In this document: positions 39,252 to 44,482 of the stretch, piece after piece
Layout of the letters: each line of letters opens with the position of its first letter
Numbering within the stretch: position 1 is the first letter of the stretch
NCBI GenBank assembly: GCA_030066685.1
Contig: JASJBF010000017.1
Span: forward strand, 1-64,000
DNA from: Kiloniellales bacterium
GTDB lineage: Bacteria; Pseudomonadota; Alphaproteobacteria; Kiloniellales; JAKSBE01
DNA length: 64,000 nt
Reading direction: 5' to 3'
Notes under the pieces: model-generated
Database searches by the model: none
What the model was told of the DNA's origin: nothing
Seen by the model: the letters and a program-made list of their open reading frames with translations, nothing else
Program-made: the position numbers and the translations under genes

Positions 39252-40211
39252 ATGAGACCTGGTATCGCCTTTATCGGCCTCGGCATCATGGGCCACCGGA
39301 TGCTGACCAACATGACCGTGCACGGCGGCTTCACCCTGGTCGGCGGCTGGGACCCGAGCCCCACGGCCCGGGACAAGACCCGGACGGCCTTCCCCGACCT
39401 GCCACTGGTCGAGGACCCGGCGGTACTCATCGCGGCGCCCGAGACCGAGGTTGTCTACATCGCCTGCCCGCCGGCGGCGCACGCGGCACACGCCCTGGCG
39501 GCCCTGGCCGCGGGCAAGGCGATCTGGTGCGAGAAGCCGCTGGGCGTCGACCTCGCCGAGAGCCGCGCCCTGGTGGAGGCCGTCGAGGCGGCCGGCGCCA
39601 GGAACGCGGTCAACTTCCCCTTCGCCGACGCCCAGGCGGCCAACCTGATCGACCGGGAGCTGAAGGCCGGCCGGCTGGGCGCGGTCGCCGGGGTCGACAT
39701 CCGCCTTCATTTTGCCCGCTGGCCCCGCGACTGGCAGGCCGATGCGACCTGGCTGGCCGAGCGCGCCGAGGGCGGCTACGTCCGGGAGGTCTTCTCGCAC
39801 TTTGTCTACCTGCTCCGGCGGCTTTTCGGGCCCACCGTGCTCAGGGATGCCGCCCTGCGCTATCCGGAGGACTCCAAGCTCTGCGAGACCCACTTCACCG
39901 CCCTCCTGGACTGCGGCGGGGTGCCGGTCTCGGCGGCCGGCAGCTCGGGCGGCGCCGGACCTGACCAGGTCGAGGTCACGGTCTGGGGCAGCGCGCGCGC
40001 CTACCGGCTTTGGGACTGGAACCGGCTCAAGTCCAGCGAGAACGGCGTCTGGCGGGACGAGCTGACCGAGCTCGAGAACCCGCGCCAGGACGGCTATATG
40101 CGCATGCTGGACAACTTCCGCGCCTTCCTGGCCGACGAGCCCAACACCATGCCGAGCTTCCGCAACGCCTTGGCCGTGCAGGAGATCGTCGAAGGGGTTC
40201 TGGCGCGGTGA
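39252..40211 (+). CDS. Gfo/Idh/MocA-family oxidoreductase
   Basis: This 319-residue NAD(P)-dependent dehydrogenase has a Rossmann start ([14 protein letters not shown]), the [11 protein letters not shown] motif whose lysine is catalytic in the family, and a C-terminal alpha/beta domain. Usual substrates are sugars, inositols or similar polyols. It is divergent from the L,D-transpeptidase and 95 bases upstream of folE, on the same strand. Nothing nearby fixes its substrate. Confidence 0.87.
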
Positions 40212-40306
40212 AAGATCCGGTCGCCGCGTTCCCGCGTAGAGAAGCCGTGCCTAAACATGAGGTTGCCGAGCTGTCGGCACCGCCGACCGAGAGGAGAGTC
40301 CTACCG

Positions 40307-40945
40307 ATGAATGCGCAGACACGGCTCCAGGTTCACACTGCTGAGACGCTCTCGCCCGCCGGCCGGCCGGAGCGCGCCGAGGCCGAGGCCGCGGTCCGCA
40401 CCCTGCTGCGCTGGGCGGGCGACGACCCGGACCGCGAGGGCCTGATCGACACGCCGGCTCGTGTCGTACGCGCCTACGAGGAGTTCTTTCGCGGCTACGG
40501 CCAGGACCCCGAAGATATTCTGCGCCGGACCTTCGAGGAGACCGACGGCTACGACGAGATGGTCGTGCTCAAGGACATCCCCTTCGAGAGTCACTGCGAG
40601 CACCACCTGGCGCCGATCCTCGGCAAGGCGCACGTCGGCTACCTTCCGGAGCATCGGGTGGTCGGCATCTCCAAGCTCGCACGGGTTGTCGAAGCCTACG
40701 CCAAGCGTCTTCAGATCCAGGAGAAGATGACGGCACAGATCGCCAAGGCCATCGAGGACGTGCTGCAGCCGCGCGGCGTCGCCGTTGTGGTCGAGGCCAG
40801 CCACCAGTGCATGACCACCCGCGGCGTGCACAAGGCCGGGGTGACCATGGTGACAAGCCGCATGCTCGGCGCCTTCCGCGACGACGCCATGACCCGGCGC
40901 GAGTTCCTCGCGGTGATCGGCAATCCGGCCAGCTCCGGCAGCTGA
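40307..40945 (+). CDS. folE: GTP cyclohydrolase I
   Basis: This 212-residue enzyme makes 7,8-dihydroneopterin triphosphate from GTP, the first step to folate. The zinc residues are in [11 protein letters not shown] and the late [28 protein letters not shown] and [11 protein letters not shown] are hallmarks. ATG 40307 with GAGGAGAG upstream. It precedes DUF1499 and SDR genes with short gaps, a likely operon. Folate supply fits the several folate-dependent demethylases in the window, though that link is inference. Confidence 0.93.
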
Positions 40946-40951
40946 GCCATC

Positions 40952-41440
40952 ATGGCACGGCGGCGCGGCCCTTCGGCGATCACCACGGGACTCCTGGTCG
41001 CCGTCGGCCTGCTCACTGGCTGCGCCGCAAACACGGAGCCGCAGGACCTGCGGGAGCTGCGGCGGTCGGACAGCCCGAACGACTCCCTCGCTTGCCCGCC
41101 CGGGATCTGCACGGCCGAAACAGACTTTCAAAGCCCTGTCTTCGGGACCTCGCCGGAGGCGGTGCTGCAGGCGCTGCGAGAGGCCGTCGAGGACCAGCCG
41201 AGGACCGAGCTCGCAGCCGAAGTGCCGGAGCCGGAGCAAGTGATCTATGTCCAGCGCAGCGCGGTCTTCCGCTTCCCCGACACCGTCTGGATCCAGCCCG
41301 TCGTCCTGCCCGAAGGCAGCTCGGTGATCATCTACAGCCGGTCGAACTACGGCTATAGCGATTTCGGCGTGAACCGGGAGCGGGTCGGCCTCTGGATCGG
41401 TCTCTTGCGGGCCGCGCTGGCCGCAGATCTCGTCCGATGA
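40952..41440 (+). CDS. DUF1499-family lipoprotein
   Basis: This 162-residue protein has a lipoprotein signal (lipobox LTGC at about 21-24), then a DUF1499 domain (FQSPVFGTSPEAVLQALREAV ... YVQRSAVFRFPDTVWIQ ... SNYGYSDFGVNRERVG, given in parts). Function of DUF1499 is unknown; it is often near ubiquinone or stress genes. It starts 6 bases after folE and overlaps the SDR start by 4 bases (ATGA), so all three are coupled. Confidence 0.85.
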   Translation: MARRRGPSAITTGLLVAVGLLTGCAANTEPQDLRELRRSDSPNDSLACPPGICTAETDFQSPVFGTSPEAVLQALREAVEDQPRTELAAEVPEPEQVIYVQRSAVFRFPDTVWIQPVVLPEGSSVIIYSRSNYGYSDFGVNRERVGLWIGLLRAALAADLVR

Positions 41441-42177
41441 AGTCCTTCGGAGACGGCTACACTGCCATGGTGGTCGGCGCCTCGGGCGGTCTGGGTCACG
41501 CCTTCGTCGAAGCGCTGCTGGAGGACCCGGCCCTGCGCGGTCTGCTCGCCTGCAGTCGCGCCGATCCTTGCCTGAGCCACCCGAAGGCCGCCTGGCAGCA
41601 GATGGACCTGGAGGACGAAGCCTCCATCGCCACCGCCGCCGAGGCGGCGGAGTCCGTGCTCGGGCCGCTGCACCTGGTGATCGTCGCCAGCGGCCTGCTC
41701 CACGACGGCGCGGGCCTGCAGCCTGAAAAGACCTGGCGAAGCCTGGAGGCCGAGGCCCTGGAGCGCAGCTACCGGGTGAACGCGGTCGGCCCGGCGCTGC
41801 TGGCCAAGCACCTCCTGCCGCGGCTCGACCGCAGCCGCAAGTCGGCCTTCGCGGTCGTGACCGCGCGGGTCGGCAGCATCAGCGACAACCAGCTGGGCGG
41901 CTGGTACGCCTACCGCGCCTCCAAGGCGGCCGCCAACATGCTGGTGCGGACCCTCTCGATCGAGCTGGCGCGGCGCAATCCGGGCGCGCTCTGCGTCGCG
42001 CTCCACCCCGGCACCGTGGACACGCCGCTGTCCCGGCCCTTCCAGCGCGGCGTCCCCGAGGGCAAGCTATTTTCGCCGGCCAAGTCGGCGCGGCACCTGC
42101 TGGACGTATTGGATCGGCTTGGGGCGGATGACAGCGGCCAGCTCTATGCTTGGGACGGCCAGCGGATTCCCTTCTGA
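41437..42177 (+). CDS. Short-chain dehydrogenase/reductase, C-factor (CsgA)-like
   Basis: This 246-residue SDR has the cofactor motif VVGASGGLGHAF, the NxxG-like VASGLLH strand and the YRASKAAANM active site (Tyr and Lys four apart). It belongs to the CsgA/C-factor-like subgroup by pattern. It is the last gene of folE-DUF1499-SDR and converges with the photolyase-like gene. Substrate unknown. Confidence 0.87.
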   Translation: MKSFGDGYTAMVVGASGGLGHAFVEALLEDPALRGLLACSRADPCLSHPKAAWQQMDLEDEASIATAAEAAESVLGPLHLVIVASGLLHDGAGLQPEKTWRSLEAEALERSYRVNAVGPALLAKHLLPRLDRSRKSAFAVVTARVGSISDNQLGGWYAYRASKAAANMLVRTLSIELARRNPGALCVALHPGTVDTPLSRPFQRGVPEGKLFSPAKSARHLLDVLDRLGADDSGQLYAWDGQRIPF

Positions 42178-42294: not shown

Positions 42295-43539
42295 CTAATT
42301 CAGGCCGAGTCGCGCGAAGACGGCCGGGATCTGACGCTTCAGTCCGAAGAAGCCCTTGGTCGCATGCGGCCAGAAGGCGTCGTCCCAGCGCCGGCGCAGG
42401 CGCAGGAGTTGGATCCCTTCGAGCCGCAGCGCGGCTTCGATCCTGTCCAGTTTTTCCTGGACCGGGCCGACCGGCGCATAGGGGGTAACCACCTGGCGAA
42501 CGCTCAATTCGCGGGCCCAGGCCGCCAGTTCCTTTGCCTCAATGCCTTCGGTGAGCGCAGACGGGGTCAATCCAAGACCCCGCCCGGCGCGGTCGAGACC
42601 GTCCCGCAGCGCGCCGCGGGCAAAATCCGCGGCAAGCGTGCCGGCGCCCAAGGGTGAGCGCGCCGCCGTGCAGACCGCCCCGGCGATGCCGAGCACCCGG
42701 CCGTCTTCCAGGCCCAGGTCCTCGATCCGCAGGTCCTCTTCCGTGATCAGCAGCGCCGAGGGCTCGGCCGGCGCGCGGCTCACCGCGGACGGCAGGGGCG
42801 TCGGCGCAGGGGCAGGCGGCTCTGACAAGGCCGGCGCGCGGCCGGAAAGCTCGGCACCCGGGCGGAAGCGGCCTCGCGTGTAGGTTTCGATGTTGCCCGG
42901 CCGCGCCAGGTAGGTCTTGCCCCGGGTATGCAAGCCGGCAACCCAGCGCCAGGATAGCGTGTTGGACGCCGGATCGCCGTCCAGCAGATGACGGAGAAAG
43001 AAGTCGGCGCCCAGCGCCCAGGGCAGCTTCAGGGTGAAGATCCAGATGCTGGCGAACCACATCCGGGCGTGGTTGTGCAGGTAGCCGGTCGAAACCAGCT
43101 CGCCCGCCCAGGCGTCGAAGCAGGCGATGCCGCTCCGCGCTTCGACCGCCGCCTGCCAGCGGCGGCGCGACGCGGCATCATCGTCCAGTGCGGCAAGGCC
43201 GGCATCCACTTCGGCGCGATAGGCGTGCCAGATTCCCGGGCGCATCTCCAGCCAGCCTTTCCAGTAGGTGCGCCAGCAAACCTCCTGGATGAACTTCTCC
43301 GCCGCGCGGAAGCTGTGCCGGCCGAGAACCGCGCGGATCACCTCGTCCTCGGTGACCAGGCGGTGCCGGATCCAGGGCGAAAGGGTCGAGACGTTGTCGT
43401 GCGCCCCGGCGCCCTGGTCGTAGTTTCGCGTCTCGGCATAGCGGCGGCCGGCGCGCGGCAGAAAGGCTTCGAGCCGTCGCAGCCCTTCCGCCCGGCTCGG
43501 CAGCCAGGCCCGGTTCTGGACTTCGGCCAGGGCGCCCAT
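42295..43539 (-). CDS. Photolyase/cryptochrome-family protein with apparently permuted domains
   Basis: This 414-residue protein starts directly with the helical FAD-binding domain (about 10-225): STLSPW, the ELVSTGYLHNHARM motif and DGDPASNTLSWRWVAG are signature elements. A proline-rich linker (about 228-262) joins it to a C-terminal alpha/beta-like domain (262-414) that contains LLITEEDLRIED, reminiscent of the DLR-x-DN motif that opens normal photolyases, and ends KGFFGLKRQIPAVF. Normal photolyases have the alpha/beta domain first, so the order is reversed. It could repair DNA with light or act as a photoreceptor. The ATG at 43539 starts 4 bases after the DCC-Coq7 stop, so the genes are co-transcribed. 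Confidence 0.8.
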   Translation of the reverse strand: MGALAEVQNRAWLPSRAEGLRRLEAFLPRAGRRYAETRNYDQGAGAHDNVSTLSPWIRHRLVTEDEVIRAVLGRHSFRAAEKFIQEVCWRTYWKGWLEMRPGIWHAYRAEVDAGLAALDDDAASRRRWQAAVEARSGIACFDAWAGELVSTGYLHNHARMWFASIWIFTLKLPWALGADFFLRHLLDGDPASNTLSWRWVAGLHTRGKTYLARPGNIETYTRGRFRPGAELSGRAPALSEPPAPAPTPLPSAVSRAPAEPSALLITEEDLRIEDLGLEDGRVLGIAGAVCTAARSPLGAGTLAADFARGALRDGLDRAGRGLGLTPSALTEGIEAKELAAWARELSVRQVVTPYAPVGPVQEKLDRIEAALRLEGIQLLRLRRRWDDAFWPHATKGFFGLKRQIPAVFARLGLN

Positions 43540-43543
43540 GCCC

Positions 43544-44482
43544 TCAGATCCGCCGCGCCAGGGCGACCGCCGCTGAAGAGCCGCCGCCGACCAGGGCGGC
43601 CCAAAGCCGGCCAAAGGGCCCCGGCGCGCCGCCGTGGTGGTGCCGGGCCTCGTCGCGGTGCTCGAGCTCGTCCTCGCGGCAGCGCTTCAGCAGGGTCAGG
43701 ATTTCCGGCTGTTCGCCGCCGGCTTCCAGGGCGTCGATCTGGGCGCCGTAGTGGCGGTCGACGAAGGTCTCGACCGCGTCGACGGTCAGGTAGACCGCCC
43801 GCGGCCCGAAGAGCGCCGGCAGGGCGCCGGTCAGCCAGCCGGCCAGGCGCCAGAGCGGCAGCAGGCGGCTGCGCGCTCGAGGCGGCAGGACCTCGTTCAG
43901 GGCCTGCAGGTGACTGGCCTCGGTCGCCAGGTGGCGGGCCGCGAAGTCCCGAACGGCGGGATCGCGGGTCACGGCGGCCATGCCCTTGTAGATCCACACG
44001 GCGCCGGTCTCGCCCGCGTGGTCCGAGCGCAGCTCGGCCAGCAGCCAGGCCGGCAGGTCGCAGGCGCCGTCGTCTTCCCCCTGGACGAGGAGCCGTTGGA
44101 GCCGCGGACGCAACCGCAAGAAGGCGTCGTAGGCGCGGTCGGCGAGCCAGCCCGTCTCCCGGAAACCGAAGGCCCAGCCCAGGGGCCGGAAGGCCGGCAG
44201 GGCCCGCCAGACCGCTGCGAAGGCCGGGCCGCCCGAGAGCCGGCTGCCGTCCGGCAGCAGCACGTGAAAGCGAGCGAGCGCGGCGCAGCGCGGCAGCCCG
44301 GGCGCGACCTCGCCCTCGGGCAGCCCGCTGACGTCCAGCCATCGGATGGCGGCCGCGCCGCGGCGGCGGCGATAGAAGGCGATCTCGCGCCGGCACAGCG
44401 GGCAGGCGCCATCGTAGAAGACCGTCAGAGCCGGCGCCGCCGGTCCCCGCACCCCTTGCAGGCTTGACGTATCAGGCGCCAT
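43544..44482 (-). CDS. Fusion of DCC1-like thiol-disulfide oxidoreductase (DUF393) and Coq7 demethoxyubiquinone hydroxylase
   Basis: Residues about 18-130 form a DUF393/DCC domain with the redox motif C27-P-L-C30 in FYDGACPLC. Residues about 145-295 form a Coq7 di-iron hydroxylase: E158 (HAGETGAV), E188-x2-H191, E238 (VDAVETFVDRHY) and E272-x2-H275 give all six ligands. Coq7 hydroxylates demethoxyubiquinone in ubiquinone synthesis. The joining of a thioredoxin-like domain to Coq7 is unusual. The start overlaps the esterase stop by 11 bases, and the photolyase-like gene follows after 4 bases, giving a three-gene minus-strand operon. Confidence 0.85.
   Translation of the reverse strand: MAPDTSSLQGVRGPAAPALTVFYDGACPLCRREIAFYRRRRGAAAIRWLDVSGLPEGEVAPGLPRCAALARFHVLLPDGSRLSGGPAFAAVWRALPAFRPLGWAFGFRETGWLADRAYDAFLRLRPRLQRLLVQGEDDGACDLPAWLLAELRSDHAGETGAVWIYKGMAAVTRDPAVRDFAARHLATEASHLQALNEVLPPRARSRLLPLWRLAGWLTGALPALFGPRAVYLTVDAVETFVDRHYGAQIDALEAGGEQPEILTLLKRCREDELEHRDEARHHHGGAPGPFGRLWAALVGGGSSAAVALARRI

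Follow-up and report, generated by a model that had tools for sequence, protein, structure and literature searches.

Photolyases in which the usual order of domains is reversed have been reported as the NewPHL class, described in 2020 as cited by later papers, and their inverted domain topology has been documented (PMC13274461). Phr7 likewise has its FAD domain at the N terminus and a 'Z-domain' at the C terminus (PMC9426592, citing Emmerich et al.), and Phr7 proteins are expected to lack Fe-S cluster cysteines (PMC9426592). The NewPHL of Dinoroseobacter shibae has a tryptophan dyad (PMC8948257), an Asn near flavin N5 is conserved in NewPHL (PMC12083526), and characterised members of the class repair cyclobutane pyrimidine dimers (CPDs) (PMC9426592, PMC13274461). 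A two-gene form, phr4/phr5, is known from marine Synechococcus, and either heterodimer formation or frameshifting has been suggested for it (PMC9426592). No description of a two-gene form beyond marine Synechococcus was found in the literature searched, which did not extend to the primary NewPHL and SPL papers. The inverted class is already published, and the gene described here adds a member from another genome, a modest gain in the reach of the class.

The window, a stretch of 64,000 nucleotides, belongs to a 5.96 Mb genome whose relatives are alphaproteobacterial. The first-pass annotation placed a photolyase-family protein here, and the reading frame proved to be intact, running from an ATG at 43539 to a stop at 42295 without an internal stop codon (Table 1). 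The start of the gene lies 4 nt past the stop of a same-strand gene encoding a DCC1-COQ7 fusion, with which it is probably cotranscribed. A DCC1-like gene was found directly upstream of the photolyase in only 2 of 80 relatives and is therefore outside the conserved unit; in the Caulobacterales relatives L027 and L034, the equivalent upstream position is taken by a lone DCC1-like gene. On the other side of the photolyase, and convergent with it, lies a cluster (40010-42177, plus strand) that encodes GTP cyclohydrolase I, an SDR oxidoreductase and a protein with DUF1499. When conservation of the window neighbours (FolE, DUF1499, SDR, COQ7) beside relatives was checked, none was kept, and a folate or quinone link of the photolyase was dropped for this reason. 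No conserved neighbour gene pointed to an antenna cofactor. The source genome carries at least three further photolyase-family genes.

Table 1. Coordinates of the photolyase gene, its parts, the adjoining fusion gene and other photolyase-family genes of the source genome
Feature	Location	Strand	Details
NewPHL-type photolyase gene, inverted domain order	42295..43539	-	414 aa
N-terminal catalytic FAD-binding domain, residues ~14-227	42859..43500	-	PF03441, profile match, AF2 helices
Pro-rich linker, residues ~228-258	42766..42858	-	No secondary structure there in AF2 model; poorly conserved
C-terminal photolyase-like alpha/beta domain, residues 259-414	42298..42765	-	AF2 of domain alone, Foldseek, profile links
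DCC1-like thiol-disulfide oxidoreductase + COQ7-like domain fusion	43544..44482	-	Pfam PF04134 + PF03232
Class I-like photolyase	G000:C12		Source genome
More divergent photolyase	C25		Source genome; 522 aa
Fe-S type photolyase homologue	C28		Source genome; PF04244

The N-terminal 225 residues had been credited with all the hallmarks of an FAD domain, and the searches bore this out. Pfam placed PF03441 on residues 83-210 (E 5.8e-20), the family profile of residues 1-230 matched canonical FAD domains at E 5e-31, and the PDB sequence matches were photolyases aligned at the FAD domain. The ends of the FAD block and of the linker fell close to the boundaries of 225 and 262 originally proposed. The equivalents of PhrB E274, W277, R278, N341, M345, W359, D372, D374, N378, W382 and W384 were invariant in 81 of 81 sequences; we take these E. 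coli PhrB equivalences from the profile alignment and general knowledge of PhrB numbering. Invariant in the same 81 sequences were W197, W174 and N193, the last being the Asn opposite flavin N5, and the position of W306, the outer tryptophan of the class I triad, was an alignment gap without a counterpart in the window family. Cysteines occur in the window protein only at residues 88, 140 and 290, with no CxxC motif, and the Fe-S cluster cysteines are thus absent.

AF2 modelling gave a confident alpha/beta fold for the C-terminal domain, both when it was predicted alone (pLDDT 95.1, pTM 0.88) and within the full protein (pLDDT 95.3, pTM 0.93). In the model the domain has five strands in the order b-b-a-b-a-b-a-b-a-a, as in the photolyase alpha/beta domain. 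Because Foldseek alignment is sequential, a search with the full model aligned the FAD domain alone, and the C-terminal domain was therefore folded and searched in isolation. The best 18 matches of the isolated domain in the PDB were all photolyases or cryptochromes, led by the class II structure 3umv (E 5.5e-4, TM 0.63 by query length). TM-scores were moderate (0.5-0.63), and universal stress proteins appeared from rank 19.

Pfam gave no match in the window's own C-terminal domain, PF00875 was matched by 2 of 81 relatives (best E 0.002), and hmmsearch of PDB sequences with the C-terminal profile returned chance-level matches only. Aligned with the canonical N-terminal alpha/beta domain, the C-terminal profile gave a local match of 68 columns (E 9e-4, score 27.3), above the maximum score of 16.5 among 20 column-shuffled decoys, and global hhalign failed to align the two. 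Since the direct match was this short and the global alignment failed, intermediates were needed. Small Phr5-like proteins served as such a bridge, with 132 columns aligned in each comparison: against the canonical alpha/beta domain they scored 53.1 (E 2.5e-8; decoys reached at most 18.6), and against the C-terminal domain of NewPHL 38.4 (E 6.5e-6; decoys at most 16.2), the argument resting on decoys and intermediates because pairwise-profile E-values are rough. The Deinococcus Phr5-like proteins themselves matched PF00875 (E 2e-4 to 1e-3). At the level of sequence comparison, homology of the C-terminal domain to the ordinary N-terminal alpha/beta domain is established, from end to end, through these intermediates.

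The order of the domains was reflected in the alignments. When the C-terminal columns were placed first, 368 columns aligned with complete ordinary photolyases, compared with 267 in the native order. The segments LLITEEDLRIED and KGFFGLKRQIP, noted earlier as resembling the start and end of the normal N-terminal domain, fell opposite the ordinary first strand 'FRQDLRLSDN' and, through 'FFGLK', opposite the ordinary domain end 'FKVFTPFWR', respectively. The last part of the C-terminal domain carries conserved motifs (R383, D386, W390-P391, G396, F398 and I404-P405) that probably make up its interface with the FAD domain, in analogy to 'FTPFW', with which the ordinary alpha/beta domain ends. Predicted fold and profile together confirm an ordinary alpha/beta domain at a new place, and the circular permutation suspected in the first-pass annotation is supported at the level of domain order.

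Relatives of the window protein are encoded in at least 579 candidate stretches of GTDB genomes. All 80 relatives fetched from these carry both domains in the inverted order within 387-445 aa, and they span Proteobacteria, Actinobacteria, Acidobacteria and Eremiobacterota. In a spread sample of alphaproteobacterial genomes, the C-terminal domain was detected at E below 1e-9 in 16 of 190. A protein of the roseobacter Ruegeria sp. TM1040 is 46% identical over 97% of the length, and many Roseobacteraceae relatives (46-56% identity) fall in one clade with the window protein. A scan of viral contigs found no relative; phage records matched the FAD domain only. Gene neighbourhoods were compared across L028, L005 and other relatives: in about 16 of the 80, mostly Rhodobacterales, the gene adjoins a divergent clpP with clpX beyond, and in a few its neighbour encodes either a photolyase of the Fe-S type or a glycosylase resembling Fpg/Nei. 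A divergent photolyase of about 520 aa, marked by 'GIHxxQxQMQ(A/S)GTTGIN' (L191:3432-5006, L031 upstream of the match, L002:652-2217), adjoins the inverted gene in Persicobacter and in several Rhodobacteraceae, and the same type is encoded elsewhere in the window's own genome. It is possible that this protein and the inverted photolyase form a functional pair.

Beyond the domain identities, domain order, conservation and predicted fold observed here, light-driven CPD repair by the window protein is most likely, because photolyase chemistry is established and the active site is invariant. The protein would be a blue/UV-A-driven flavoenzyme whose most likely substrate is CPDs in single-stranded DNA or in locally unpaired stretches, a preference carried over from characterised relatives. 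The N-terminal helical domain would hold FAD, and in the light FADH- would give an electron to the flipped-out dimer; W197 and W174 would serve as a short chain of tryptophans that restores the reduced flavin. The C-terminal domain, joined by the linker behind the FAD domain instead of in front of it, is a smaller homologue of the alpha/beta (antenna) domain that ordinary photolyases have at their N terminus. Its most likely role is to pack against the FAD domain and seal the flavin site.

Several other readings of the gene were weighed. In one, a short photolyase is joined to an unrelated domain of Rossmann-like or USP-like type, which resembles the antenna domain through common fold only; this would account for the missing Pfam match in the window's own C-terminal domain and for the universal stress protein at Foldseek rank 19. 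Every structure ranked above that protein was, however, a photolyase or cryptochrome, two relatives do match PF00875, and the 132-column links run through Phr5-like proteins of which the Deinococcus ones match that family as well; we consider an unrelated domain, an alternative raised at the outset, to be improbable. The other alternative raised then, a rearranged or truncated gene, to which misassembly may be added, draws on a domain order unlike that of ordinary photolyases. It is refuted by the relatives, which keep the full-length architecture across phyla, and breakage and misassembly of the gene are ruled out in this way. A light-sensing role in place of repair, like that of cryptochromes, might be envisaged in a genome whose other photolyase-family genes could make repair by this protein redundant. 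Against such a role, the equivalents of E274, W277, N341, M345 and W384 are invariant, characterised members of the class repair CPDs and some relatives adjoin other photolyase genes, and a sensor function thus appears unlikely. The window protein is, with high confidence, a NewPHL-class photolyase that would repair CPDs, the characterised proteins A8LJA9 (D. shibae) and M7YZC8 (M. mesophilicum) having been compared by description only.

The profile search of relatives also detected a split form of the inverted photolyase. At one locus (L123), the FAD domain has a gene to itself (about 284 aa), and behind it lies a second gene whose product starts TLIWAHDDMLGP. Among 385 alphaproteobacterial genomes, ten FAD-only genes with strong matches were found (L132-L141), and in all ten a small alpha/beta gene is next on the same strand; the two genes share 4 or 8 nt in nine of these pairs and lie 14 nt apart in the tenth. 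In Deinococcus sp. QL22 the split form comprises genes of 257 and 173 aa with a 4-nt overlap, the second annotated as hypothetical (L190:2357-3648), so that an overlap of 4-8 nt is present in 10 of the 11 split pairs (ten alphaproteobacterial and one from Deinococcus). The fused form is present in three other Deinococcus plasmids (L187-L189) and in Persicobacter. In a midpoint-rooted tree of FAD domains, with one long branch (Persicobacter) and bootstrap values not fully settled, the window family formed one clade (support 100/98), and a branch supported at 100/100 had all inverted-order proteins on the same side.

For some 'short photolyases', described as having no alpha/beta domain, that domain may thus be a second subunit. 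With rather less than even confidence, we hypothesize that many short photolyases consist of two subunits, the alpha/beta one being the product of the next, overlapping gene, that NewPHL represents a branch of this inverted lineage in which the two became fused, and that the superfamily put its two domains together in opposite orders, perhaps starting from separate subunits in the ancestor and not from a form devoid of the alpha/beta domain. The root of the photolyase/cryptochrome superfamily is argued over, and permuted and split photolyases are relevant to it, because proposals of an ancestor without the alpha/beta domain depend on proteins whose partner gene may have escaped notice. The split-gene result is somewhat weightier than the window gene itself.

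Compared with the known systems, the window protein agrees with NewPHL/Phr7 of Dinoroseobacter shibae, Methylobacterium mesophilicum and Prochlorococcus in its N-terminal FAD domain and small C-terminal domain, in the Trp dyad that replaces the class I triad, in the conserved Asn near flavin N5 and in the absence of Fe-S cluster cysteines. Like the window family, NewPHL/Phr7 proteins are common in alphaproteobacteria, and no difference was found in this comparison by described features. Inverted order is shared with Phr4/Phr5, encoded by two genes, and the fused Phr6 of marine Synechococcus and Cyanobium (PMC9426592), and the FAD domains of proteins similar to these form the clade nearest to the window family. 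However, Phr4 and Phr6 have four Fe-S cysteines that the window protein lacks, and Phr4/Phr5 occupy two reading frames whereas the window protein is one chain. The SPLs (Xu et al. 2021, via PMC9649867 and PMC9178010) share a short N-terminal FAD domain with the window protein, but they are described without an alpha/beta domain, which the window protein carries at its C terminus. With class I CPD photolyases (1OWL, 1IQR and the class I-like protein of its own genome), the window protein shares homologous domains and catalytic residues; the class I alpha/beta domain precedes the FAD domain, whereas the window protein has the opposite order, a smaller alpha/beta domain and no distal tryptophan (W306).
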